The notes beneath the pieces were generated by a model. That model was not told the DNA's origin. It worked only from the letters and a program-made list of their open reading frames with translations, and made no database searches. 63,198 bases of DNA from Deltaproteobacteria bacterium (GTDB taxonomy: Bacteria; Bdellovibrionota; Bdellovibrionia; Bdellovibrionales; Bdellovibrionaceae). The stretch spans positions 1-63,198 of the forward strand of contig JAFLCC010000017.1 of NCBI GenBank assembly GCA_017302835.1, in the 5' to 3' direction. A program made the position numbers and the translations under genes. Shown here one piece after another: positions 12,189 to 53,501 of this stretch (position 1 is its first letter; each line of letters starts with the position of its first letter).

Positions 12189-15185
12189 TTATTTAGCTGT
12201 GGAACTTTGATCAATTTCCCCATCATTTTGCTGTTTTGAGCTTCTGGCAAGGTAGAACTTTTCTAACTCTTCGCGAAAATATTTTCTTTCAAATTTTCGA
12301 AAGGATTCATACTTTACCTGAGATCCTAGAATTTCTATGACTTTATTCGCGCTTTCGCTTTCAATTTCCTTCATTTTAGCCAAACCTTGTTCTAGAAAAT
12401 CAGTACGGATGGTTTCTTTTTTTTCAATCAAATTCTTGACGAGAGTGTGCGACATGGCCACAATTTTTATGGATTTTTCTTCTTCAATTCTCCATGTTTT
12501 CAAAAGATAATCCATCGCCGCCTTGCCCCACTTGTCATGATATTTGTGGTTTAAGTAAAGCTCTGTAAATTGGTCTGTGTACAGCACAAGATCCACATAG
12601 GACTCCTTCACTTCGGGGACTCTGGCTGGGATAAATTTTTTACCTATTAAATCTTTCTTGTTTTGCTCTGCTTGCTCTGCGATTCTTTCACTCACAGGGG
12701 TCTGTTTCTCTTTCACGTAATTATAACCAGAGCTCCCTAAGAAAAACAAGAGCATCCCCATCAACATTCCGCCCCCAACAAACTGCTGACGTTGTCTTTT
12801 CTGTTTCGACAATACCAAAGTGGCATCTTTCTTTAATTGCCCTTTATCTGAGTCCGTCTCTGCCGATGTGGCGGCTGAATGTTCATCAAAGGTGTTAACA
12901 ATTTGCTTATAAATATTTTCAGACAGCTGAGCAAATTGAGCCGGCGGCATGGTTCCAATAATTTCTTTTTCAATAGAACGATGAATCTCCTTCGCTATCG
13001 TTTCTTTATTCTTATAAATATCGCTTAACATCGTTTCTTTCATGGTGTTTAGCTTATCTAATTCGAGAATTTTCATTTGATTCACTTGTTCTTGCGTAGC
13101 CTTCTGCATCTTCTGTTGTTCGATAATTAACTGTTCTTTGAATAAAGATTTTTTGGCTTCAAAATCTTTTTCCATATGAATGACGTTTTCTTGCTGCGCA
13201 CTCATCTCATATCTCATCTCTCCCAATTTCTTTTCGACAATTCGGGTTTCATGGATGACAGCCTCTTGTTGCTTTAACAAACGGATATTTGATTCTTTAA
13301 GCTTATCTACTTTCTCCTTGGTCTCATTAAAGTCTTTTATGATCAGGTCATTTTCATTTCTTAACTGAGAGTTGTTTCTTTCTAGACTGGTATGATCTAC
13401 TCTTAATTCTTTAACTTTAGCTTCTAATATATTATTCTCGTCAATTAGATCTTTATTTTTATATAAAAACTCGTCCTGTCTTTCTTTCAACCATTGACTC
13501 AACTCTTTGTTTTTCTTTTCTTCTAACTCTTTAATCTCGGCTGCTTTGAGTTGCCATTCATTTTCTTTCTTTTTTTGTTCGGCCTTGATCCACGCTTGGG
13601 TTTCATTTCGTTTGTTTGACTCAAAATTCCTTAATTGAACCTCGCGTTCATCCCACTCTTTTTGTAATCGAGATTTAGTCTCCTCAACCCAGCTGTTTGT
13701 TTCTTTTACCAGTTTTTCATTCTGTTCTCGTACTGATTTCTCTTGATGCTCAAGCTCTTTTAATTTAGCTTCCTTATCTCTGTTAAAGTGAAAGTAAAAC
13801 TCTTCTTCCTTTTTTTTCAGGTTTCCTTTGAATTCAGAAAGTTCATTGTTTTTTCGTTCTTCTTCAAGTTCTAAATCATTATAGCGAGAGGCAATGTCTC
13901 TCTCTGCAAACTCTTGTCTTTTTTTAAGTCTTGATTCAAAATCCTCACCTTTTTCAGCAAGCGATTTTTCAAAGGATTCTCCTCTCAATCGAAGCTCTTC
14001 ATCTAGCGACTTTCTTTTATCTTGTTCTTCTTTTTCAAGTTTTGACTTCAGACTTTTTCGACTCTCATCAAGAGCTTTAATTTCATTTTCAAGTTTTTCA
14101 ATATCTTTTTGCAGCAAAGATATTTCTTTTTTCTGATTATCTATTTCAGACTCTGAGTCCATTTTTATTTTTTCAATATCACGATAAGCGGCCGCAATTA
14201 ATTTTTCTTTTTCTAACTTGGCATTTTCTTCTGATTCGGCCAGCAACACATGCATCTTTTTTAATGCCTCTCGTTCTGTTCTTTGCAATAAGCTTTCTTT
14301 CTCTGACTGAGCATCCTTTAAAATACTATTTTTCAATTCCTCAATTTCAATAAGTGACTTACTTTTTAGCTGCTCCATTTCATTTTGTGAGAATTCGCGC
14401 ATCAAGGAGGCTTTTTGCCTGGCCTCCTCGACTATTCCATGGGCTAAGGTCTCGTTCCTCTTTAACATTTCCTGAGCTTTTAACTGAGCCTCTTCAAGCT
14501 TTAATTTATAATAATCATCCGATTCTTTTTTAAATTCATTTGCCTTGCTGTAGATTTCTTGAACCTTAATCTCTGCATCGTTTTGAGCGTCATTGATAAG
14601 ACCAACGCCACGTCTTTTGGCGTCTTGGACAATTTGAGTCGCCTGGGCGGAGGCCGTGGATAAAATTTCATTTTGTTTTAACAACATCTCATTTTCAATG
14701 CTGACAGCTTTTTGTTCAGCAATTTTAATTAATTTATCATGCCCTTCCTGCGCCAACTTAACGATTTTTTGCCCTTCGGCATGAGCCCCCTGAATCACTC
14801 GAGAAAGTGATTCTTTCTCGTCCTTAGGCAATTGGCTCTTAACAATTTCATCTTTTTTAAAACATTTCTCTAATAAATTAAAAGACAAATAAATTTCAGA
14901 TTTTCCTAACTTGACTTTATCTCCAGGCTCGACACTGATTGTCTTTTGCGAAGGGATTTTTTGATCGTTTACAAATGTACCGTTCGCTGAACCTTGGTCT
15001 TCAACCCAAATTTTATTATGTTTTAATGTCACGATCAAATGAATACGGCTAATATTCTGATCACTAAAGGCCAAGGTGGCATCTAAGGATCGGCCCACCG
15101 TAAAGGTGCTATCGTCAACTATTTTATAGTCAACATTCTCACCTTCTTGAACCGTGACAATAAAAACCTGAATCGACTTTGCCAT
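12189..15185 (-). CDS. FHA-domain protein with very long coiled coil and C-terminal membrane helix
   Basis: 998 residues. Residues about 25-100 form an FHA phosphothreonine-binding domain with the conserved GR (31-32), SRIH (46-49) and SANGT (67-71) residues. Residues about 110-790 are almost continuous heptad-rich coiled coil. A single membrane helix follows at about 803-824 (GGGMLMGMLLFFLGSSGYNY), then a helical C-terminal domain of about 170 residues, presumably periplasmic. This topology puts a long cytoplasmic rod and a phospho-reader inside the cell, anchored to the membrane. It is the last gene of an operon with the MotA-like (16 bp upstream) and MotB-like genes, so it probably docks on, or signals to, that channel. 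No match to a named protein is claimed. Confidence 0.85.
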   Translation of the reverse strand: MAKSIQVFIVTVQEGENVDYKIVDDSTFTVGRSLDATLAFSDQNISRIHLIVTLKHNKIWVEDQGSANGTFVNDQKIPSQKTISVEPGDKVKLGKSEIYLSFNLLEKCFKKDEIVKSQLPKDEKESLSRVIQGAHAEGQKIVKLAQEGHDKLIKIAEQKAVSIENEMLLKQNEILSTASAQATQIVQDAKRRGVGLINDAQNDAEIKVQEIYSKANEFKKESDDYYKLKLEEAQLKAQEMLKRNETLAHGIVEEARQKASLMREFSQNEMEQLKSKSLIEIEELKNSILKDAQSEKESLLQRTEREALKKMHVLLAESEENAKLEKEKLIAAAYRDIEKIKMDSESEIDNQKKEISLLQKDIEKLENEIKALDESRKSLKSKLEKEEQDKRKSLDEELRLRGESFEKSLAEKGEDFESRLKKRQEFAERDIASRYNDLELEEERKNNELSEFKGNLKKKEEEFYFHFNRDKEAKLKELEHQEKSVREQNEKLVKETNSWVEETKSRLQKEWDEREVQLRNFESNKRNETQAWIKAEQKKKENEWQLKAAEIKELEEKKNKELSQWLKERQDEFLYKNKDLIDENNILEAKVKELRVDHTSLERNNSQLRNENDLIIKDFNETKEKVDKLKESNIRLLKQQEAVIHETRIVEKKLGEMRYEMSAQQENVIHMEKDFEAKKSLFKEQLIIEQQKMQKATQEQVNQMKILELDKLNTMKETMLSDIYKNKETIAKEIHRSIEKEIIGTMPPAQFAQLSENIYKQIVNTFDEHSAATSAETDSDKGQLKKDATLVLSKQKRQRQQFVGGGMLMGMLLFFLGSSGYNYVKEKQTPVSERIAEQAEQNKKDLIGKKFIPARVPEVKESYVDLVLYTDQFTELYLNHKYHDKWGKAAMDYLLKTWRIEEEKSIKIVAMSHTLVKNLIEKKETIRTDFLEQGLAKMKEIESESANKVIEILGSQVKYESFRKFERKYFREELEKFYLARSSKQQNDGEIDQSSTAK

Positions 15186-15201
15186 AAAATAATACTTTCT
15201 A

Positions 15202-16131
15202 TTAAGATATCTTTATTTTTTTAATCTCATCAAATTCTCTACCACGTTGCCCTTTAGCTATTTCAATATTCAGTGATTCTTCAGCTAGCGCCTCTTCTGG
15301 ATCTCTATTCTCATCAAAGGGTTTTTCATTGCTTGGAAACTGATTATGATCACTTCGATACCACAATAAATCCATCGAGCTTTCAAACCTATCGATCATC
15401 GAAACGAATACTCTATCTGGAGAAAAAATCACGTTGATAAAATTAAGCAACAATGAAAAAGTGATCCCTGAAATAGAAGATGACATGGCATAGGAAATTT
15501 CAAATAAAAATCGATCCATCACATTTTTGGTATTGTCCATGTCTTGCAAATTCATTCCACCCAGTTCTGGCAAGCCTTTGGCTATTCCCATAAAGGTTCC
15601 AAGGATACCTGCCACAACAAAGAGTCCTGGAAGGATCGTAACGACATCATTAAGACTAGATATCGGAAACACACCAAAAACCCTATTAAAACAAGGATTG
15701 TGATGAAAAGTAGCCTTTGTTATATGTAATAACTTAGGGGTCTCGTCAGTCCATTTTAAAAATTTTAATTGTTTCAATATGTCTTTAACCAACCACGAAC
15801 ATCCTTGTTTAACCAAAAATATCCTATCACTCCAACGCATGATTTTATCAGTGCGTCGGCGTAACATACGGTCTCGCATTTCAAAAATTTCATAATACGT
15901 TCTTTCTAACATTTTTTTAGATAGCACATAAAAAGAAACATTTTTTTTGTCATTTGGTTTTTCTGTTTCCATGAAAAGCGAAACTCTTTTCTCAAACTCT
16001 CGAGAAAACCATTCGTGGCGTTTTACCGTGTACCAAATCATGACTCGCAGAAAGGCACCCAGTATAAATACCCCACCCATTATGTAAGGTAGAGAGAGTA
16101 TAAAATATTCTACCAATGTTTTAGTTCCCAT
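15202..16131 (-). CDS. MotA/TolQ/ExbB-type (ZorA-like) proton-channel subunit
   Basis: 309 residues. An N-terminal membrane helix (about 9-32) is followed by a cytoplasmic loop rich in Arg/Lys. Two more membrane helices follow: ILPGLFVVAGILGTFMGIAKGL (about 176-197) and ISYAMSSSISGITFSLLLNFINVIF (about 220-244). The LPG-L-x-GILGTFxG signature is the pore helix seen in the MotA/TolQ/ExbB superfamily and is especially close to the style of ZorA. The C-terminal tail of about 60 residues is acidic and has no long coiled coil, unlike classical ZorA. GGAG lies 10 bases upstream of the ATG. It should pair with the MotB-like protein encoded 18 bp upstream to use the ion gradient for work. Confidence 0.85.
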   Translation of the reverse strand: MGTKTLVEYFILSLPYIMGGVFILGAFLRVMIWYTVKRHEWFSREFEKRVSLFMETEKPNDKKNVSFYVLSKKMLERTYYEIFEMRDRMLRRRTDKIMRWSDRIFLVKQGCSWLVKDILKQLKFLKWTDETPKLLHITKATFHHNPCFNRVFGVFPISSLNDVVTILPGLFVVAGILGTFMGIAKGLPELGGMNLQDMDNTKNVMDRFLFEISYAMSSSISGITFSLLLNFINVIFSPDRVFVSMIDRFESSMDLLWYRSDHNQFPSNEKPFDENRDPEEALAEESLNIEIAKGQRGREFDEIKKIKIS

Positions 16132-16149
16132 GTTCCCATTCTCCTTTAA

Positions 16150-17811
16150 TTATTTCTTTCCATCCATTCCAAATCTGATAATAACTCTTTGTGATTTTTT
16201 GCAATCGTTGACCTTACAAAAATCCACTCCCGGCGACACATTTTTAACTTTCATCACCTCAAGAAAACTTCTTCCAGAAACTTTCATGACTGGGAACATG
16301 TCTTTTTGGTGATCAAATTCCATCGTCTTGTCATCTATAATATGAGTAAAGATGGATTTCGCTCGCTGATAACTCAAATCCATGTTGTACTTTAAAGCTT
16401 GTTTGTCATTTTTGGCACTCGAGTTAGGGTCCACATATTTTCCCTTATAGGTCGGAGAAGCAAAGCCCACAATTTCAACTGCAGATATTTTTCCTTTTAC
16501 TTTGTCGTTCCCAAATAAAGACTTCGCATACACGGGCATGGCTTTCTCAAGAACTGACTTCATATCTTCATTTAATTTGGCGGATCCCGATTCAAAATAA
16601 GAATCACCAAAATCGAGCATTACTTCCCCTGTCTGAAGATCGATATCAGCCTTCACGCCAGCTTTTTCAAATCCCTTTTTGATTTCCTTTGCAACGTCTT
16701 TGCGCAGATCTCTTTCTTCCAAGGCTTGACGAAGCTCTTTATCTTTGCTCCCTAAATCTTTTGACAGACCGGCAATTTTATTTTGCAAATCACGCTCTTT
16801 CTGTTCCGCTCTTTGTTTAAACTCGCCCTCTCTTTTGGCTCTTTCGGCGGCTCCTAATTTTTGCGCCCCTAGCTCTTTTTCAAAGGCCTTGCGATCACGG
16901 TCTCTCTCTGATTCATACTGTCCTTGCAAATCAGCGATTTTTTTATTGTACTCGCCTTCAACTGTTCCTAATTTGTTCTTAAGTTGGTCCGCTTCTTTTG
17001 ACTTTACATTGAGGGCGGACTGGGTTTGTGCCAGACTTGATGACAATTCTCCAAGCTTGCTTTGCGATTGAGTTAATTCTTTTTGATAGGCCTGGTTGTC
17101 TTCATTAAGCTTATCAATGTTTTTCTGATTGTCCTCTTTCAATTTTGCCATTTTCTTCTGATAGGCCTGCTGAGTGATTTCTTTATTTTTAAGCGCCATC
17201 TTAAGATCATTCATTTTTTCATCTAAAGTTTCTTGAACCTGAGCTATTTTCATTTCACCTTCAGCAATCAACTTCTTTTTGGTTTCCACATCTTCATTGA
17301 GATTCGTAATTTGTTCTTCTTGGGACACAATGGTGACATCTTGTTCTTCGATAATCGAATCTCGTTTTTTAATTTTAGTTTTTGATAAGACATTGGCGTT
17401 AATCATATTGCGAACCATTTGCTGGTACTGATTAAGCGCTTCTTCTTTTTGACCATTCGCCAAAGAGGCCTGTCTTAATTTCTCTTTCTCGTCTTTGGCT
17501 TCTTCCTTGAGAAGAACTAACTTATCCATTAATTCTTGATAAGCCTTGAACTCTGATTCAGGCGCTTGAGATTTTAAATAATCTTTTTTTATCGACTCAT
17601 ACATTTTCAACTGACTTTTTAAATCCTGAACTTCAGTTTTGAGATTCTGGTTATCTACCTGCTGTTTCATGCCATTGGTTCCCGTTCGCAGTGAAGATGT
17701 GACATAAAGTAGCAAAAAAATAGTTGATAAACCTAAAAACAAATCTGAATAAGAAGTCCAAAAATGTCCATCATCTTGGTGATTTTTATGTTTTTCATAA
17801 TTAAATGACAT
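16150..17811 (-). CDS. MotB-like protein with coiled coil and OmpA peptidoglycan-binding domain
   Basis: 553 residues from the ATG at 17811, chosen because GAGGAAAAC precedes it; the reading frame is open further upstream. The N-terminal membrane segment WTSYSDLFLGLSTIFLLLY (about 18-36) carries Asp 23 in the position of the ion-binding Asp of MotB. Residues about 50-390 are coiled coil. The C-terminus (about 400-553) is an OmpA/MotB domain (FASPTYKGKYVDPNSSAKND, LSYQRAKSIFTHI) that should anchor to peptidoglycan. The coiled coil is far longer than the linker of MotB or ZorB, so the anchor would reach deep into the periplasm. First gene of the three-gene module. Confidence 0.85.
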   Translation of the reverse strand: MSFNYEKHKNHQDDGHFWTSYSDLFLGLSTIFLLLYVTSSLRTGTNGMKQQVDNQNLKTEVQDLKSQLKMYESIKKDYLKSQAPESEFKAYQELMDKLVLLKEEAKDEKEKLRQASLANGQKEEALNQYQQMVRNMINANVLSKTKIKKRDSIIEEQDVTIVSQEEQITNLNEDVETKKKLIAEGEMKIAQVQETLDEKMNDLKMALKNKEITQQAYQKKMAKLKEDNQKNIDKLNEDNQAYQKELTQSQSKLGELSSSLAQTQSALNVKSKEADQLKNKLGTVEGEYNKKIADLQGQYESERDRDRKAFEKELGAQKLGAAERAKREGEFKQRAEQKERDLQNKIAGLSKDLGSKDKELRQALEERDLRKDVAKEIKKGFEKAGVKADIDLQTGEVMLDFGDSYFESGSAKLNEDMKSVLEKAMPVYAKSLFGNDKVKGKISAVEIVGFASPTYKGKYVDPNSSAKNDKQALKYNMDLSYQRAKSIFTHIIDDKTMEFDHQKDMFPVMKVSGRSFLEVMKVKNVSPGVDFCKVNDCKKSQRVIIRFGMDGKK

Positions 17812-17878
17812 GTTTTCCTCTTTTGTTCTTCGATTCTCTATTCGAGAAAATCTAGATAAAACTAAATGCATTGACTTA

Positions 17879-17894: not shown

Positions 17895-17960
17895 CGACTT
17901 TTGACCATGACCAACAAAGTTCTGCTTGATTTTAGTCGAGTGTTGAAAAATGATAGTTCC

Positions 17961-19124
17961 ATGAAATATTGTATTTTATTTTTAGTGTGGTTTGTTTCCT
18001 TATGTTACCCGATTTATGTTCAAGCCTATGCTGATTTTATTGGCTATGGATACAGCTCCTGCATGACTTGTCACTACAATGGTCAAGGCAATGGTCCCCT
18101 GAATGACTACGGTCGTGGAGTTTTTGCTGCGGAAGTTATCTCTAAGTCTTTTATGAAATCTACGGTTACCGATGAAGAACTCTCAGAAAAAAGCGGTTTT
18201 CTTGGGAAGACCTCCTTGCCTTGGTGGTTTCGCCCGGGAGTTAAATACCGTGGGTTATGGTTTCAAACAAATCCTGGAAGCAAAGAAGCATTAAGTAAAT
18301 TCGTCACCATGCAAGCTGATGCCAGCGCCGTGATTCATTTTGACCAAGATCAAAAATGGGTATTCGTTTCAAGTTTCGGTTACTATCCCGTGCCTGCTAA
18401 TTTAAAAAATGATCCCAATAAACCCTCCGAGTGGATCTCTCGAGAGCATTACCTTCGCTACTTAAAAAATGATAATTTAATTTTCTTTGTTGGACTTATG
18501 GACAAAGCTTTCGGCATCAGAACTGTCGATCATACAGCTTTTTCTCGAGTCAAGACGGGGTTGGCCCAAAATGACCAAACTCATGGAGTGATGACCACCT
18601 ATAAAATGGAACCTTGGGATTACACTGCCCACGCTTTTCTTGGAAATCTTTCCCAAGATGCCGATCTCAGGCAAAAGGGATTTTCATTAATGGCAGAAAA
18701 AGACCTCCACCAGTTTCATCGAATCGGCTCAAGCTTTATGATGTCACAAAACGATTATGTGAACTGGCTCCGCGTTTCCGCTCACTCCAAATTGGGTTTT
18801 GGCAAAGGCAATAGTTTTTTAACCGAAGCTGGCTACCTGCAAAATAAACCAAAAAGTGGCGCGACCAAAAATGGAGGCTATGCCATGGCTCAAAGCATGG
18901 CCCTCATCCGCCGCGGATTTTTCTTTCTTTCCCAAGCTGAGTATTTTAATCAATCACTTTCGACAAAGTCTCCCGATAATTTAAAATGGACCTTTGGGCT
19001 TGTCTCTTTTCCTTATCTAAAAACTGAATTTCGTTTAACCCTAGTCAATGGCAGAGACCTTTCAGATGAAACCACTGCTGGTGATTCTTGGGCTGCCCAA
19101 ATGCAACTTCATCTATCTTTATAG
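17961..19124 (+). CDS. Secreted mono-haem outer-membrane beta-barrel-like protein
   Basis: 387 residues from the ATG at 17961, which places the signal peptide (hydrophobic 4-20, ending VQA) correctly; the frame opens 20 codons earlier. Right after the cleavage site comes one c-type haem motif, CMTCH (34-38), within SSCMTCHYNGQGNGPLNDYGRG. The rest (about 90-387) has alternating aromatic/polar strands (WVFVSSFGYYPV, LIFFVGLMDKAFGIR, GFFFLSQAEYFNQ) suggesting a barrel in the outer membrane. A single haem fused to a barrel suggests electron transfer at, or sensing through, the outer membrane. The family is not named here. Downstream barrel gene starts 7 bp after its stop. Confidence 0.7.
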   Translation: MKYCILFLVWFVSLCYPIYVQAYADFIGYGYSSCMTCHYNGQGNGPLNDYGRGVFAAEVISKSFMKSTVTDEELSEKSGFLGKTSLPWWFRPGVKYRGLWFQTNPGSKEALSKFVTMQADASAVIHFDQDQKWVFVSSFGYYPVPANLKNDPNKPSEWISREHYLRYLKNDNLIFFVGLMDKAFGIRTVDHTAFSRVKTGLAQNDQTHGVMTTYKMEPWDYTAHAFLGNLSQDADLRQKGFSLMAEKDLHQFHRIGSSFMMSQNDYVNWLRVSAHSKLGFGKGNSFLTEAGYLQNKPKSGATKNGGYAMAQSMALIRRGFFFLSQAEYFNQSLSTKSPDNLKWTFGLVSFPYLKTEFRLTLVNGRDLSDETTAGDSWAAQMQLHLSL

Positions 19125-19131
19125 AGGTTTT

Positions 19132-20169
19132 ATGTTACGTTTCACACTCCTGTTTTTGGTTTTCTCAATTAAGGCTTTTTCCTTGCTCCTATCTGAACCG
19201 ATACAGCTTGCAGAAAATGCCATTGTGATTGACGAGTCTACACTCATAGCCAAGCCCAAAAGCCCCTCTGAATCTAAATCCAAGACTCAAACGCAGTCCC
19301 AAACAAAATCTCAAGCTAAGCCAAAGAGTCTAACTAAACCTCAAACTCAACCTGTTGCAAAGTCAAATACGGCCAAAAAAGCCCAACCAAAAGCGCTAAA
19401 AATGAATGAGGGACTTACTTTTTCTGATGAAAGCCCCCAAATTCCACCCCTTTCCGAAGAAGAAACTAATTCTCCTGTGAAGGTGCCACCACCGGTTTCT
19501 TCTGCTCCCCCGCAATCATTGAACCCCAAAAAACAAAAGATTAGACCTCCATTGGTTCTCGACGAAAGCAGCGGAAGAGAGGAACCCAAAAATCCCATGG
19601 AGGTAGCCCCTACAGCCAATTCATCAAACACTGGACATTCCACTGTGAGCAAATCCAAGTTTAAAGATCGAAAAGCTATCACCATTGATTACAATACTTG
19701 GTACGAAACAATTAAAATTTTAAATAGCTCGACAAGCGCCTACTCTGATACGAAATCTCATTATTTTGGCGTTGGTATCTATTACGATCATACGATTTAC
19801 GAAGAAAAATATGGTTATGCTTTTTCTCTGGGAGCTATCAGTGGAAATGCCCAGTCAGGGATAGTCAACACTGGCGAATACTACGAAAGAAGAATTTCCT
19901 GGCTTGGGTACCGAGTGGGAGGAAGGTTTTTTGTTCGCGCGAATACCCGAATAGACATTGGCCCTTCCATTTTAGTCCAATTTAAAGATACCAAATGGCC
20001 CGAAGAGGCCACCTTCAAAGTCATGCCTCAAATCAACCCACAATATTTTTTCTTTTTGGATACCCGTTGGAGGATCAGTTACCCCCTTGAATTGGTTCAA
20101 TCTTTCGGCTTTCATACAAGACAATACTCAATGATCTGGAGACTAGGTTTTAATTACACGCTAAATTAA
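19132..20169 (+). CDS. Secreted protein with low-complexity linker and C-terminal beta-barrel
   Basis: 345 residues from the ATG at 19132, preceded by AGAGG; an earlier in-frame start would overlap the previous gene. A signal peptide (1-19) is followed by a Lys/Ser/Gln/Thr-rich tract made of repeating SKSKTQTQ-like units (about 40-85) and a Pro-rich linker. From about 185 on, the protein has beta strands with aromatic girdles (HYFGVGIYYDHTIY, WLGYRVGGRFFVR, YSMIWRLGFNYTL), a pattern typical of an outer-membrane barrel. The linker could span peptidoglycan. Probably co-transcribed with the mono-haem protein gene. Confidence 0.7.
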   Translation: MLRFTLLFLVFSIKAFSLLLSEPIQLAENAIVIDESTLIAKPKSPSESKSKTQTQSQTKSQAKPKSLTKPQTQPVAKSNTAKKAQPKALKMNEGLTFSDESPQIPPLSEEETNSPVKVPPPVSSAPPQSLNPKKQKIRPPLVLDESSGREEPKNPMEVAPTANSSNTGHSTVSKSKFKDRKAITIDYNTWYETIKILNSSTSAYSDTKSHYFGVGIYYDHTIYEEKYGYAFSLGAISGNAQSGIVNTGEYYERRISWLGYRVGGRFFVRANTRIDIGPSILVQFKDTKWPEEATFKVMPQINPQYFFFLDTRWRISYPLELVQSFGFHTRQYSMIWRLGFNYTLN

Positions 20170-47107: not shown

Positions 47108-47222
47108 GACTCTACCCACTTTAAATTGATCTTGCTGATGCACTGGACTTGGCCCATGGCTTGCTGACTTTTATGGCGCTAACTGTTTTTTTAACCCTAA
47201 TTTGTTTTTTAAAGAGGTACGT

Positions 47223-47927
47223 ATGGGATTTTTTTCCAATTTATTTCAAGCTTTTTCCCATGGTGGATTTGTCATGTGGATTATTTTTTTCGGTCAAATC
47301 TTTTCTATAGCGATCATTGTTGAAAGAATTTACGTTCTTTTTCTCTCTCGATCTCTGAACAACAGAAATATGGCTCTCCAATTTGAGGAAGATATTAAAA
47401 AAGGAAACCTTGATACCGTTCTCTCTAAGGCCAAGTCCCTTTCTAAAAAAGACTATGCCCTTGGAAAAGCTATTGTTGCAGGGACTCAAGCCGCCGTTCA
47501 CCGAGGCGGCAGCCAAGAGATTCAATCAAAGATGGATGAGGTCTTACTTTCAGAGACCTCTCAAGTTGAAAAGCGTACTGGTTTTCTGGCGGCCATTGGT
47601 AACATCGCCACCCTAGCAGGTCTCTTAGGAACGATCATGGGTCTTATTGATTCTTTTTCTGCTGTAGCCAACAGCAATCCTATAGAAAAAGCGGCACTCC
47701 TATCTAACGGTATTTCAATGGCCATGTATGCGACAGCCTATGGATTGTTGGTTGCTATTCCTGCCCTCGTTATGTTTGCCGTCTTACAAAACAGAGCTCA
47801 ATCCCTGACGGAAGATTTAAACCAAACAGCCTTAATGGTCTATAATTGGTTAACCTATAGTTACGAACCTGTTTCTAAAAAAATCCCTCGTACTTTTGAT
47901 TACCGTCAAGCTGATTTTCATGAATAA
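47223..47927 (+). CDS. ExbB/TolQ/AglR-type proton-channel protein
   Basis: 234 residues from the ATG at 47223, with AAAGAGGTACGT upstream; a TTG reading 7 codons earlier is less likely. TM1 at about 12-33 (FVMWIIFFGQIFSIAIIVERIYVLF), a cytoplasmic loop, then TM2/TM3 in LAAIGNIATLAGLLGTIMGLIDSF and GISMAMYATAYGLLVAIPALVMFAVL, the classical MotA/TolQ/ExbB pore helices. With the two ExbD-like products it should form a proton-driven motor. First gene of a ten-gene operon; in gliding myxobacteria the equivalent channel is AglR, which is an analogy only. Confidence 0.9.
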   Translation: MGFFSNLFQAFSHGGFVMWIIFFGQIFSIAIIVERIYVLFLSRSLNNRNMALQFEEDIKKGNLDTVLSKAKSLSKKDYALGKAIVAGTQAAVHRGGSQEIQSKMDEVLLSETSQVEKRTGFLAAIGNIATLAGLLGTIMGLIDSFSAVANSNPIEKAALLSNGISMAMYATAYGLLVAIPALVMFAVLQNRAQSLTEDLNQTALMVYNWLTYSYEPVSKKIPRTFDYRQADFHE

Positions 47928-47951
47928 AAGAAATTAGGATAGGAGGTATTT

Positions 47952-48443
47952 ATGGGAATGTCTGGTCAGTCTTACTCTAAGAAAGATTTGAATTTTGAAC
48001 TTAATTTACTTCCTGTATTTGACATCCTTTCTGTATGTATCTGTTTTTTATTGATGACCGTGGTGTGGGTGGAGATCAGGTCCCTTGAAACAAAGCAAGT
48101 GATTGGTAGCCAAGGCCTGGCAGAGACGGAAACGAGAGAAAGCCTCTGGATTAGCTTGGATCAGGAAAACAACCTCACTCTGAACCTGCAATCGCCAAAA
48201 AAATTACAAGACGGCACCTCTTCCCCTTCGGCCTCTACCTCTAGAAAATCTTATTCCTTGATGGCGGCGAAAGGTCAAATTGACTGGAACAAGATGAGTT
48301 TGTATTTAAAATCGATTGCCAATAACAAAATCGAAATCGCGCAACTTCTTCCAACAAAAAAAACCAAGTACGATGAAATCATCAAGCTTATGGATCTTCT
48401 AAAACAAAATGGCTTTAAGGATATTGGTTTATCACCTATATAG
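47952..48443 (+). CDS. ExbD/TolR-like stator protein, copy 1
   Basis: 163 residues. One N-terminal membrane helix (LLPVFDILSVCICFLLMTVVWV, about 17-38) contains the Asp expected to carry protons, followed by a periplasmic domain that ends KYDEIIKLMDLLKQNGFKDIGLSPI, the usual ExbD C-terminal helix-strand. AGGAGG lies 5 bases before the ATG. With the second ExbD copy it gives a two-TolR arrangement like AglQ/AglS beside AglR. Confidence 0.88.
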   Translation: MGMSGQSYSKKDLNFELNLLPVFDILSVCICFLLMTVVWVEIRSLETKQVIGSQGLAETETRESLWISLDQENNLTLNLQSPKKLQDGTSSPSASTSRKSYSLMAAKGQIDWNKMSLYLKSIANNKIEIAQLLPTKKTKYDEIIKLMDLLKQNGFKDIGLSPI

Positions 48444-48472
48444 TTGCAACTAAATGAAGGAAATGAACTTAC

Positions 48473-48949
48473 ATGAAAGCAAGTGTTTTAAAAAACCAAA
48501 TAATAAACAGCCCGCTTCAACTGCAAAAGCGAATTCAAGCCTCTGGAGCTTCCCCTAAAGGTAAAAGCCTCTCCTTTGTGATGAACTTAACAACACTCAT
48601 TGATGCTTTTTGTATTTTAGTCATTTTTTTACTTTCCAACATGAACGGACAGCTACAACATTTTCAATTGGGAAAAAGTTTGATTCTACCCTCCGCTATG
48701 AAAACGGAAGTTTTAAGCCCCGGTGTTCAAATCAAATTTGAAAAGGAGTCGCTTTTTGTAGATGAGAAAGCGACCTCCTTTGAGGACTTAACAAAAAAAC
48801 TCATCGCTCTCAAGGCTGAGAACAAAAATCATTTAGTGATTCAAGCGGATCGAAATTCTGATTTTGAAAAAATAAGCTTGTTGCTTAGGGCTGGCGGACA
48901 AGCTGGTTTTGATAAGTATTCTTTTGCCGTCCTCCCAGGATTCAAATGA
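48473..48949 (+). CDS. ExbD/TolR-like stator protein, copy 2
   Basis: 158 residues. An extended basic N-terminus (about 1-35) precedes one membrane helix MNLTTLIDAFCILVIFLLSN with its conserved Asp, then a periplasmic ExbD fold (VQIKFEKESLFVDEKATSFEDLTKKLIALKAENKNHLVIQADRN). Ends with the normal motif KYSFAVLPG. Its stop overlaps the next start by four bases (ATGA), showing translational coupling to the TPR gene. Confidence 0.88.
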   Translation: MKASVLKNQIINSPLQLQKRIQASGASPKGKSLSFVMNLTTLIDAFCILVIFLLSNMNGQLQHFQLGKSLILPSAMKTEVLSPGVQIKFEKESLFVDEKATSFEDLTKKLIALKAENKNHLVIQADRNSDFEKISLLLRAGGQAGFDKYSFAVLPGFK

Positions 48950-51900
48950 GAAGTTTTATGTTACGTCTTTTGTCTGCCATTCTTTCTTTAAGTTTGCTTT
49001 CTGGCGGGGCAGCCCAAGCCGAAAAGATGAGCCTGACCGTCCATGATTCTCTGATTGAGAAACTAGAATCTGTTCTCAATCCTCCTCTTAAAGACAGCAT
49101 GTTAGAACAAACTCAATTATATTTGCGACTGGCTGATCTCTATGCAGAAAGAGCCAGATTATTAGGTCTGGAAAAGGATGGACAAGGTGCTCTTTTAAAC
49201 AAGACAAAAATCGATCTCGATAGAACCAAGTCCTTGGGTATTTATTCCCGATTACTTCATAAAAAATCCGCATTTACTGTTGAAAAATGGGGCCATATTC
49301 ACTTACAAATTGCGCATTTAAATTTGATCCAAAATCAGGAAGCCAAAGCCATCAGTACTTACTTTCGTATTTTAAACCATAAACAAAATTTTGATGGGCA
49401 AACTATTTTCACTGCCAATGTCCAGCTTGGTGATCTTTCCTTTTATAAGGGAGATTATAAAAAAGCTAAAATTTATTTTACAAATTCACTTAAAGAATCA
49501 CAAGGATTGTTATTAGGTTCAAATCAGGTGAGTTTAGCTCAAACAAGCTCCGCCCGAAGGGCTTATGCAGCCTACCGAGCCGCTTGGTGCGATTTTAATT
49601 TAGGACAAGCTCAAATGGCTAAGCAAAGCCTGATTCAACTTCTAAAAAATATATCTACGACATCAACTAAGAACCAAAGCTTTCACGAAGATGTCTCCAG
49701 AGATTTGGCTACTTTTATGGCCACTTTAGATGTTTCCGAGTCAGAGATTGAACTGCTTGAAAACTTAAGCCCCCAACCCGCTAAGCAAAAAAATTTGATT
49801 TATTTGGCTAACGAGTTAGAAAGAACAGGAAAGAAAAAAAGTGCCCTTCTTGTTTGGAAAAAAGTGGAAAACAAAAACCCACAGATTGAAGATAGAATCG
49901 CAGGACAATTGCGAGTGACTCGGATTGAGTATGACCTGGGCCGCAAAGATAAATTAATCCTTGAATTGGACAAAACGATCCACCTTCTTCAAGAACCAAA
50001 ATCAAAAGAATTACCAGAAAGTTCTGAAAATCAAAAAAAATTAAAATCCCTTCTCGCTGAGTGGGCCAAAGCGGAAACACAACATCCCTCCTTAGAGCTT
50101 ATCAAGGCCAATCAGCTTTTTACAAAAGCTTTTCCTGACTATGAAATCAGTTTTTGGATCGGACAAACATCCTTAAAAAGAAAAAACTATCTAGAAGCCA
50201 TTCAAGCCTTTAAAGATGCAGCCACTTTACTTTCCTCTGTTCCAACCTCTGTTCCTAAAAATCCAAGACTTTCTCGTTTATTTGAAGACGCACTCTTAGG
50301 AAACATCGAAGCCTCAGAAAAATTAAACTCAACGGATCTCAAATTAGAGGCTTATACATTTTATCTAGAGCTAAATCCAAACGGAGAAAAACTCTATTCC
50401 GTAAAATATCAAATGGCCCATGGGTATTATGAAGCCAATAATTTTCAAAAATCTCTTACCTTATTTAAAGAAATTTCCTTAGACAAACAAGCACCCTATT
50501 CCCTTAGGGACACATCTGCTGAATTAAGTATCGATAGCGCGGTTCTTCTTAAAGATGAAGTTCAAATTGAAAAGGACGCACTTTTGTTTTCACAAGTTTT
50601 TACAAAAAAATCAGACTATTATCTTACGCTTTGGCGCAAATCCATTCTCAACCAAAGCGCCAAATTGTTAAACGATGCTTCCACATCATCAAGCTCCCTC
50701 GAAAAACTCTCTGACAAACTAAATGCTCTCGATCTGCACTCGTGGCCAACCGCAGATCTAAAGAAGACCCTACAGCATCAAACTTCCCTAGGCTTGAAGT
50801 TAAACCGTCTTGACCTCATCCTCAACTCATCACAAAAATTATTAAAGGTCCCTCAACTATCCTTGTCTGAGATAAACTCTGCATTCACCCAAATAGCCTG
50901 GGTCTACGAAATGAAAATGGATTTTCCCATGGCTATTTTTTATTCACGTAAAATTACCCCAACGACAAAGAATAGAGCGGACCATTTTTATAAACTAGCG
51001 CTCTTATCTGAATTAGCCGGAGTCGATCCTACCCCAGACTACCTTCAATTTATAGCTAGCTCCAAAGATCCTTCAAAGAAGCAATTGGCTATTTACAAAA
51101 TTGTTTTAATTTCTAAAAATCCAAAAAGTGTCTTTTTAAAATATCAAAATATTTTAAGGTCCAATTTTATTGTTTACGCTGCTGCAGGAACTTTTGTTTT
51201 TGAAAAAACAAAAGACGATTTATTTGCAAAAAAATTACTTAATTCAACCAAAGTTAAAAACACCTTTGAAGGCCAACTATTAACTCATTATTTAGAGTTC
51301 CAGAAAATGCTTCAAAAACAATCTCATCTCCGCCAAATTCCTATTTCTGGTTCTTCTGGAAGCGCCTTAAAAAGAAATATTTTAGCAAAAGTTTCAGGGC
51401 TAAGCAAAGTTGAAACCCAGATCCAAAAATTAAATCCACGAAAGGATTTTATCTTGCAACTTTTTGGTTTGGTCTATTTAGCTCAAGAAAATTCAAAGCT
51501 AGCCACAGATATTCTTTCACTGCCAATTCCCAAGCAATTAAAGCCTTCACAAAAAAAAGAATATCTTGAACAAGTTCAACAGCAAGTTCATCCCTTTCAG
51601 CTGAAGTCAATTTCAATTACGGAAAAAACCCATACTCTCTATCAGGAAGCCATCGCTAAAAATTTATTTAAAGACCTTTTTGACTTGAGTCAGGAAGAAG
51701 GAAAACCAGGTTCTCTGCTTGCTAAAAATCTAGTGCTTCATCTCCAAACTTCCGCTTTGGCCATTGGACTTAAACAGGATCCTTTTATAAGTTTTTCACT
51801 TGAACGACAAAAAATAGTCAATGAAGCCAATGCAAGTAAAAAATTCCTTCTTAAAGATCCATTTAATATCAATGAGTTAGAAAAATTCCGCAACTTACAA

Positions 51901-51978
51901 AAAGCTCTAGGAGATGGCCCCTTAGTTGCTTATCTAGATTCACGACTTGCCTTCCCTACCCCTCAAGGAGCGAAATAA
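48946..51978 (+). CDS. Large periplasmic TPR-repeat protein
   Basis: 1010 residues with a signal peptide (ending GGAAQA/E, about 26). The rest is helical with several TPR-like pairs (for example TANVQLGDLSFYKGDYKKAKIYFTNSL and YQMAHGYYEANNFQKSLTLFKEIS). TPR scaffolds of this size in an ExbB/ExbD operon recall GltD/AgmU-type periplasmic proteins of the gliding machinery. Overlaps both neighbours (ATGA upstream, TAATG downstream). An internal ATG at 48958 is an alternative start. Confidence 0.8.
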   Translation: MRSFMLRLLSAILSLSLLSGGAAQAEKMSLTVHDSLIEKLESVLNPPLKDSMLEQTQLYLRLADLYAERARLLGLEKDGQGALLNKTKIDLDRTKSLGIYSRLLHKKSAFTVEKWGHIHLQIAHLNLIQNQEAKAISTYFRILNHKQNFDGQTIFTANVQLGDLSFYKGDYKKAKIYFTNSLKESQGLLLGSNQVSLAQTSSARRAYAAYRAAWCDFNLGQAQMAKQSLIQLLKNISTTSTKNQSFHEDVSRDLATFMATLDVSESEIELLENLSPQPAKQKNLIYLANELERTGKKKSALLVWKKVENKNPQIEDRIAGQLRVTRIEYDLGRKDKLILELDKTIHLLQEPKSKELPESSENQKKLKSLLAEWAKAETQHPSLELIKANQLFTKAFPDYEISFWIGQTSLKRKNYLEAIQAFKDAATLLSSVPTSVPKNPRLSRLFEDALLGNIEASEKLNSTDLKLEAYTFYLELNPNGEKLYSVKYQMAHGYYEANNFQKSLTLFKEISLDKQAPYSLRDTSAELSIDSAVLLKDEVQIEKDALLFSQVFTKKSDYYLTLWRKSILNQSAKLLNDASTSSSSLEKLSDKLNALDLHSWPTADLKKTLQHQTSLGLKLNRLDLILNSSQKLLKVPQLSLSEINSAFTQIAWVYEMKMDFPMAIFYSRKITPTTKNRADHFYKLALLSELAGVDPTPDYLQFIASSKDPSKKQLAIYKIVLISKNPKSVFLKYQNILRSNFIVYAAAGTFVFEKTKDDLFAKKLLNSTKVKNTFEGQLLTHYLEFQKMLQKQSHLRQIPISGSSGSALKRNILAKVSGLSKVETQIQKLNPRKDFILQLFGLVYLAQENSKLATDILSLPIPKQLKPSQKKEYLEQVQQQVHPFQLKSISITEKTHTLYQEAIAKNLFKDLFDLSQEEGKPGSLLAKNLVLHLQTSALAIGLKQDPFISFSLERQKIVNEANASKKFLLKDPFNINELEKFRNLQKALGDGPLVAYLDSRLAFPTPQGAK

Positions 51979-52265
51979 TGGCGAAAAAAGAAGTAAAACC
52001 TTTGCAAAAACAAAAAGTGATTTTAATTTTTACATTTTTTATTCTCGTATTTTTCTCTTTAACTCTTTTAGCAAAAATAAAAAATAAGAAAACAACTCCT
52101 GCTTTATCTACAGCTATTGATTTTAATGACCAAATGGTTGGGGGTAAGTATCAATCTCCCTTTGAAGCTTTAACCGTCGTAGAAGATGAAAAATCTATCG
52201 ATGACCTTATTGGGGTCCGTAAGAACTTTCAAGATCGTCAACGTCGTTCCAAGGTGATGAGGTAA
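51978..52265 (+). CDS. Small single-pass membrane protein
   Basis: 95 residues: a basic N-terminus, a membrane helix (VILIFTFFILVFFSLTLLA, about 14-32) and a short, charged periplasmic tail ending in RRSKVMR. No family recognised. It is tightly coupled in the operon (one-base overlap with the TPR gene, three bases before the AgmX-type gene), so it is probably a real accessory subunit. Confidence 0.7.
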   Translation: MAKKEVKPLQKQKVILIFTFFILVFFSLTLLAKIKNKKTTPALSTAIDFNDQMVGGKYQSPFEALTVVEDEKSIDDLIGVRKNFQDRQRRSKVMR

Positions 52266-52268
52266 TTC

Positions 52269-53501
52269 ATGAGTTCTCAACACTCCCGTCCTATTTACTA
52301 CCTTGAAAACAATCAAGGACAAGCCGTCCGAGCCATTGAATGGGAAGAAGAGAAACTTCATTTTATCTTTCGTCACGACACTCAAAGAGTGGAAGCTATT
52401 TATGATTTAGGCCCATTAGTCGAAGAAAATATTTCTTTTACCTTGCTTGAAACCTTGGACAAACAAAGGTTTTCTTTAAATAAACGCTATCCTTTAAGCT
52501 TTATGAATAATCATATCAGTTTGGTTGCTGAATCTAAGAACATTTTGCGAAATGTGGATTTACCCAAAGACGATCCAGATCATTTTATCGAGATTTTAAA
52601 AAAAACCAGTGGGATCATGGTTTTTTTAGTCGCCTTTTTACTTATTGGAAGCATTTTAATCCCTAACATCAATGATCACAAAAAAAATGCGGACCCTTTG
52701 CCTTTACAAACCGTCACTGTCATTGACCGAAAATTAGTACCCCCCTCACTCCTCGTTAAACCTCTGGCCATCAAACCCTCTGCCTTGGTTCAACAGGCTC
52801 CAAAAAGAATCATTTTACCTAGAAAATTTTCTCGATCCCATTTACAAAAAAAGCAAATTAAACCCATCGCTATAACTCAGTTAGGTGCTCTGGGAGCCTT
52901 GGGGCAATTGAAAAAATCACCTCAACGTGGTGGACTTTCATTGAACCATTTTAAGACTTCAAAAGGAATTGGCCGTGGAGAAGGTCTTGAAGGCAGCGGT
53001 GGAATTCAAACTTCTCACTATGCTAAGGGAATGTTTTCAGCCCCCCTTGGCACTGGAAAAAATATTTATGGCGGCGGAGGCTATGGCAGCAAAGGTAAAG
53101 GTGGCGGGGCCAGCGGTTATGGAAAAATGGCCCTTGTTGGATCCTCTTCTTCATCAACGGCCTTCATTGAATCCATCGATAGCGAAGCCTGGAGCCAGGG
53201 TGGATTAGATAAAAATGCCATCGCCGCCGTGATTCAAAGACATCTAAGTGAAGTGCGATTTTGTTATGAAAATAGTTTACAAAAAAATCCAAATCTTTCG
53301 GGACGTGTTTCAATTAATTTTACAATTGGTCAACAAGGTCTTGTGACCTTGGCGCAAGTGAATAACTCAAGCATGGGTCATCCACCCGTAGAAAATTGTA
53401 TCAGAGACCACCTGCGAAGTTGGAAGTTTCCAAAGCCGCAAGGCGGAGTAAACGTCAAGGTTAATTACCCTTTCGTTCTTCGCAGGGTCAGTGACACATG
53501 A
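52269..53501 (+). CDS. AgmX/PglI C-terminal domain (TonB-like) protein
   Basis: 410 residues. A cytoplasmic N-terminal beta domain (1-110), one membrane helix (about 114-133), a basic Pro/Lys periplasmic spacer, a Gly/Ser-rich tract (about 230-290), and a C-terminal AgmX/PglI domain (about 312-410: LSEVRFCYENSLQKNPNLSGRVSINFTIGQQG...CIRDHLRSWKFPKPQGG). The domain has the two Cys of the family (C336-, C377-region). It is TonB-like and would link the ExbB/ExbD motor to outer envelope parts, as proposed for GltG/GltJ (AgmX) in Myxococcus. Confidence 0.88.
   Translation: MSSQHSRPIYYLENNQGQAVRAIEWEEEKLHFIFRHDTQRVEAIYDLGPLVEENISFTLLETLDKQRFSLNKRYPLSFMNNHISLVAESKNILRNVDLPKDDPDHFIEILKKTSGIMVFLVAFLLIGSILIPNINDHKKNADPLPLQTVTVIDRKLVPPSLLVKPLAIKPSALVQQAPKRIILPRKFSRSHLQKKQIKPIAITQLGALGALGQLKKSPQRGGLSLNHFKTSKGIGRGEGLEGSGGIQTSHYAKGMFSAPLGTGKNIYGGGGYGSKGKGGGASGYGKMALVGSSSSSTAFIESIDSEAWSQGGLDKNAIAAVIQRHLSEVRFCYENSLQKNPNLSGRVSINFTIGQQGLVTLAQVNNSSMGHPPVENCIRDHLRSWKFPKPQGGVNVKVNYPFVLRRVSDT

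Follow-up and report, generated by a model that had tools for sequence, protein, structure and literature searches.

A conserved three-gene cassette of Bdellovibrionota sets a ZorA/ZorB-like motor core beside a long FHA rod protein and probably encodes a motor under signal control, not a defence system

The question raised by this locus is what a cell does with a MotA/MotB-like membrane channel whose genes are followed directly by the gene of an FHA protein with a very long coiled coil. The locus lies in a window (the whole stretch of DNA that was analysed, 63,198 nucleotides) from a member of the Bdellovibrionaceae. It consists of three co-directional genes on the minus strand at 12189-17811, transcribed in the order P0003, P0002, P0001, and the three close open reading frames that an earlier note had described there were all confirmed, with intergenic gaps of 16 and 18 bases. 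The features of the cassette are as follows.

16150..17811, minus strand: P0003, MotB/ZorB-like subunit, 553 aa (ORF, PADLOC ZorB profile, alignment)
15202..16131, minus strand: P0002, MotA/ZorA/TolQ-like pore subunit, 309 aa (ORF, ZorA profiles, fold)
12189..15185, minus strand: P0001, FHA-rod protein, 998 aa (ORF, Pfam FHA, heptad analysis)
14904..15101, minus strand: FHA domain of P0001 with a canonical phosphothreonine pocket (Pfam, pocket conservation)
12207..12833, minus strand: predicted membrane helix and C-terminal helical domain of P0001, residues 785-993 (AlphaFold2, pLDDT 93.8)

The start of P0003 was placed at a conserved MSF, which gives the 553 aa listed; the longest open reading frame begins at 17871. 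Upstream of the cassette, at 17901-20169 of the window, are two divergent open reading frames that have no Pfam match and are conserved in neighbouring genomes, the first of them containing a haem-like motif, CMTCH.

The pore subunit P0002 has three predicted membrane helices with the signature PGLFVVAGILGTFMGI and carries the GxxGTxxG signature of the TolQ/ExbB/MotA/ZorA superfamily; this pore signature is invariant or nearly so among its orthologues. Profiles of ZorA align to TM2-TM3 (PADLOC 5.7e-11, NCBIfam 9e-12), both as partial-profile matches and with the NCBIfam score below its cut-off, and there is no Pfam match. A search of the PDB with the pore profile returned ZorA chains alone as convincing matches (8vvn at 8e-08, 8qyd and relatives), and the fold model of P0002 (mean pLDDT 79, pTM 0.65) gave a modest fold match in which six ZorA chains came out on top (E 0.004-0.03), with TolQ and ExbB next. 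The earlier assignment of the channel to the MotA/TolQ-type motor superfamily, and its likeness to ZorA in particular, are thus borne out by signature, profiles and fold. The partner subunit P0003 matches the ZorB profile of PADLOC at 1.7e-29 and the Pfam MotB plug at a sub-threshold 0.009, and a PDB search with the MotB profile leads to ZorB chains, one of them a type II ZorB. It has a single membrane helix in which Trp18, Asp23 and Leu24 are invariant (Trp18 and Asp23 of this plug helix show no exception in 36 orthologues), a periplasmic coiled coil of about 320 residues (heptad signal z=3.9 for residues 60-385) and an OmpA/ZorB-like C-terminal domain whose Cys532/Cys537 pair is invariant in the 36 aligned orthologues, in agreement with the MotB/OmpA protein with a long coiled coil that had been noted. 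In this domain another residue stands in place of the canonical OmpA Asp (GFASPTYKG), which makes wall binding by P0003 uncertain; a similar change is found in a type II ZorB. These comparisons place the motor core in the Zor branch in a broad sense, as its nearest relative by sequence and, with a modest match, by fold.

We compared the cassette with the known systems built on such motors. Its pore and MotB-like subunits find their nearest relatives by sequence and fold in the ZorAB proteins of Zorya types I and II, a long cytoplasmic rod belongs to the machine in both, and the unusual OmpA-like loop of the MotB-like subunit recurs in a type II ZorB. Unlike Zorya, however, the cassette has a pore subunit that continues for only about 45 residues after its last conserved region, without the long tail of the 729-aa ZorA chain, its MotB-like subunit carries the extended coiled coil, and its rod is a separate FHA membrane protein. 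The absence of ZorC, ZorD and ZorE, already remarked upon, was upheld, as no PADLOC Zor effector was found in the rod or in the ten flanking proteins. Membership in Zorya was rejected on the missing ZorA tail and the missing ZorC/D/E-like genes, though a ZorA-like pore and a ZorB-like partner are present. With the flagellar MotAB stator the cassette has in common a MotB-like plug helix with a conserved Asp and an OmpA-like domain, but its pore subunit has no Pfam MotA_N or MotA_ExbB match, separate MotA_N proteins are encoded elsewhere in the window's genome, and membership was again rejected. Compared with TolQRA and ExbBD-TonB, it has the TolQ/ExbB-like three-helix core and a bitopic third protein; it differs in a MotB/ZorB-type rather than ExbD-type partner, in a very long cytoplasmic rod and in lacking a TonB-like motif.

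The earlier statement that no established system places an FHA protein on a motor of this kind is contradicted by GltG of Myxococcus, which combines an FHA domain on the cytoplasmic side with a membrane helix and a TonB-like part, and whose interaction with AglR was shown in a two-hybrid test (PMC3169522), although the present rod family is separate from it. Bdellovibrio has several core clusters of the AglRQS-GltG type (Luciano et al., PMC3169522). The cassette resembles Agl-Glt (AglRQS with GltG) in having a bitopic FHA protein alongside a TolQ-class motor, but it is without the ExbD/TolR subunits, the TonB_C part and the TPR Glt partners, its partner subunit is ZorB-type and its rod is long. 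Membership was rejected on domains: Pfam gave no match to an AglR-type PF01618 subunit or a PF02472 pair in the three proteins, and FHA is present but TonB_C absent. A second motor operon, at 47202-53501 of the window, resembles the Agl-Glt core clusters and comprises a PF01618 subunit, a pair of ExbD-type subunits, a TPR protein of 1010 aa and a TonB_C protein; the genome as a whole has 15 PF01618 and 10 FHA matches. No published description of the cassette was found in the main texts of the openly accessible papers searched.

The FHA domain of P0001 occupies residues 29-94 (Pfam 2.3e-15). Its pocket residues are Gly31, Arg32, Ser46, Arg47, His49, Asn68, Gly69 and Thr70, each kept in 44-49 of 49 rods (Arg32 in 46/49, Ser46 in 48/49, Asn68 in 44/49), and this near-invariance is compatible with the reading of phosphothreonine; a Ser/Thr kinase was present in 12/12 genomes tested. 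Phosphothreonine reading is not essential to the cassette everywhere, because one f17 sub-lineage retains the rod with an FHA domain that is degenerate or missing. The loci concerned are L127, L129, L133, L136 and L137, and in most of them the motA tail motif discussed below is altered. Behind the FHA domain, residues 110-785 include 3 prolines and 42% charged residues with a heptad signal of z=3.2 against shuffles. This region of about 676 residues and the one membrane helix near residues 800-820 correspond to the coiled coil of about 680 residues and the single late helix proposed earlier; the helix was located by eye, a simple hydropathy cut-off having missed it here and detected it at the equivalent place in most orthologues. 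The straight-rod length is 27-199 nm among 49 orthologues, with a median of about 90 nm, and in a profile search the coil resembles a DivIVA-type coil, far below the cut-off. The N-terminus is predicted to be cytoplasmic because KQKRQRQQ precedes the membrane helix, and by the positive-inside rule the C-terminal domain is predicted to be periplasmic. P0001 is thus bitopic and has, beyond the helix, a conserved helical domain of about 150 residues that was absent from the earlier note. For this domain a Foldseek search of solved structures gave no match at E under 1, and a known fold was rejected, the best VIA match being a designed protein at Z 6.0, a score too low to be meaningful between helical bundles; the lack of a structure match does not show that the fold is new. 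No TonB_C domain was found by Pfam in P0001, nor does TonB_C figure in the 25 families listed when the C-terminal domains of 54 orthologues were scanned, and the membrane helix has no conserved His of the TonB/TolA kind, any His occurring in 7/54 rows.

Reading of the loci across genomes, in answer to the earlier note's call for a synteny check, found the order motB-motA-FHA conserved well beyond one strain, across genera and families of the Bdellovibrionota. That this order is kept amid unrelated flanks argues that the cassette is a real unit. No fourth gene is conserved across the loci, save for a neighbourhood common to the window's own genus and its near kin. Among 99 genomes of the class, protein searches at a strict cut-off located the pore subunit in 61 and the rod in 52, and a profile search found pore relatives in 88/192 genomes of the phylum, some in a more distant sister family. 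A rod gene accompanies 55 of the 73 loci compared (counting G048, where it sits on another contig) and is lacking at the other 18. By genus, the cassette is found in 6/6 genomes of g1, 19/21 of g3 and 1/10 of g2; its presence in g3 and general lack in g2 is only a lead towards a link with predation mode. The trees of all three genes place two f17 loci, L122 and L123, among those of the Bdellovibrionaceae, and this agreement suggests that the cassette was transferred as one piece. In genome G016 it lies at about 1,107,724-1,112,616, some 2 kb ahead of an SRP54-domain gene that we read as ftsY, and B. bacteriovorus HD100, the organism we take this genome to represent, appears to have the cassette slightly upstream of that putative ftsY; neither HD100 locus tags for it nor expression or mutant data on the locus were found in the literature searched. 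A cross-phylum genome scan by exact peptide patterns recovered close relatives only, including one match in a contig binned as Actinomycetota that we take to be contamination, and the single plasmid match was a distant ZorA. A few loci are irregular. In genome G022 (L065 and L066) the first 43 or so codons of the rod gene follow motA and the remainder is 0.9 Mb away, as if the gene had been broken by rearrangement, which could be an assembly error. In G048 (L085 and L086) motB and motA with its tail motif are followed by a 3164-aa open reading frame. An apparent frameshift interrupts the pore gene in one MAG (L063, 9995-10838; also G097).

The cytoplasmic C-tail of P0002 bears the motif FDENRDPEEALAE and a small C-terminal residue. 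With a pattern drawn up after viewing the alignment, a tail motif of the type DEHRDPxEALA was found in 52/55 loci with a rod gene and in 0/18 without one, and the three rod-bearing loci that escape the pattern all retain part of the motif. In the tested genomes that lack the rod gene, searches of the whole genome gave no rod domain either, and the rod C-terminal domain occurred in 0/7 tested genomes without the pore gene. We regard the association of rod and tail motif as a hint and not as proof, since the tree explains the loss of the two by one or two events, too few for independent pairs to reach significance. At the very end of the chain, the pore subunits finish in Ala, Ser or Gly in 74/75 sequences, the exception being what we take as a locus with a masked stretch, and the ending [AVGS][ASG] is seen in 69/75 of them versus 5.4% of 1051 other open reading frames (binomial 7e-80, a value that ignores relatedness). 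At 15205-15213 of the window and in the motA orthologues (L064-L103, L122-L156) this end is typically K-A-S or K-A-A. Fifteen control open reading frames end in [KR][AV][AS], 8/15 of them being the cNMP proteins of the sister cassette described below, and the genome's MotA_N protein terminates in KKAA. Alanine-rich C-termini are often recognised by ClpXP, so that a degradation signal may reasonably be suspected at the pore C-terminus. The attack-phase core genes include those of ClpX and ClpP (PMC5430801).

A sister cassette was found at nine loci of families f16 and f17 (L148-L156), where the motB-motA pair is followed directly by a protein of 146-160 aa. The nine small proteins are mutually homologous, those scanned have a cyclic-nucleotide-binding domain (3/3), and they end in KAA, KAS or similar. 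That the third slot can hold an FHA rod or, in its stead, a protein of the cNMP-binding type suggests that it serves as signal input. We tentatively extend this to a Bdellovibrionota class of Zor-type motors in which an exchangeable third gene would couple a cytoplasmic signal to the motor, in most lineages as a phosphothreonine-reading FHA rod and in the sister cassette as a cyclic-nucleotide-binding protein, and in which the small C-terminal end of the pore subunits and of the cyclic-nucleotide proteins, as a putative degradation signal, would help control the amount as well as the activity of the motor through the life cycle; we hold this broader reading to be conceivable rather than probable.

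For the cassette itself, the account towards which we lean, by a modest preference, is an ion-driven motor in the inner membrane that belongs to the Zor branch and has a bitopic rod protein of its own with a phosphothreonine-type FHA tip; it would be gated by a signal and serve a role other than defence. By analogy with related motors, five MotA/ZorA-like subunits may surround two MotB/ZorB-like subunits reaching toward the cell wall, and this 5:2 assembly would conduct ions. The rod would substitute in trans for the cytoplasmic tail that is fused to ZorA in Zorya, anchored by its own membrane helix with the helical domain in the periplasm; on the cytoplasmic side it would reach inward for some tens to about 200 nm and hold the FHA domain at its far tip. 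We infer docking, gating and function for the rod and motor as a pair, their contact being suggested by gene order and co-occurrence: the C-tail of motA is the likely docking site, and a Ser/Thr-phosphorylated partner at the FHA tip might switch the motor or link it to a load. The most likely role would be a signal-controlled mechanical function, such as surface motility, polarity or envelope work, and not phage defence.

Three other explanations were weighed against this account. The cassette might be an energised force transducer like TolQRA/ExbBD-TonB or AglRQS-GltG, in which the motor moves the periplasmic domain of the rod so that it acts on the wall or the outer membrane, and the cytoplasmic rod with its FHA domain is a regulatory or localisation handle. 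GltG is a precedent (PMC3169522), the rod is bitopic as are GltG and TolA, and its periplasmic domain is conserved and tied to the motor by co-occurrence; the missing TonB_C domain, the lack of a conserved TonB-like His in the membrane helix and a MotB/ZorB-like partner, OmpA-like domain included, in place of ExbD/TolR lead us to consider this explanation rather unlikely. It is improbable that the FHA rods are a structural or polar scaffold that organises the cytoplasm or the pole, with the MotAB-like proteins anchoring them without turning, because a mere anchor would not need the proton-path Asp of MotB and the TolQ/ZorA pore signature, both invariant or nearly so; the long coiled coils of variable length (27-199 nm if straight) and the far sub-threshold DivIVA-type similarity are what such a scaffold has in its favour.

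A Zorya-like anti-phage system, with a rod that senses or recruits an effector, would accord with a motor core closest to ZorA/ZorB. Against it, there is no ZorC/D/E-like gene and no conserved fourth gene, the window has no convincing defence genes beside the cassette (weak matches of a PLP enzyme to DndA/SspA only), and the lone plasmid match is to a distant ZorA. The cassette is moreover near-universal or mostly absent by genus and not patchy among strains, and such a lineage trait is unlike a mobile defence island, as a pattern of distribution and not a functional test. We judge this explanation to be very unlikely, and defence to be the least likely of the three functions proposed in the earlier note (motility, envelope remodelling and defence). 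What the cassette encodes is probably a motor that answers to a signal and has no part in defence.

Work on the Zorya motor has treated it as a defence device, and a conserved relative whose rod is detached and bears a signal reader would reveal how Zor-type motors serve other ends. The cassette would also make it possible to ask, in the genetically tractable Bdellovibrio, what passes from a motor along a rod in the cytoplasm.
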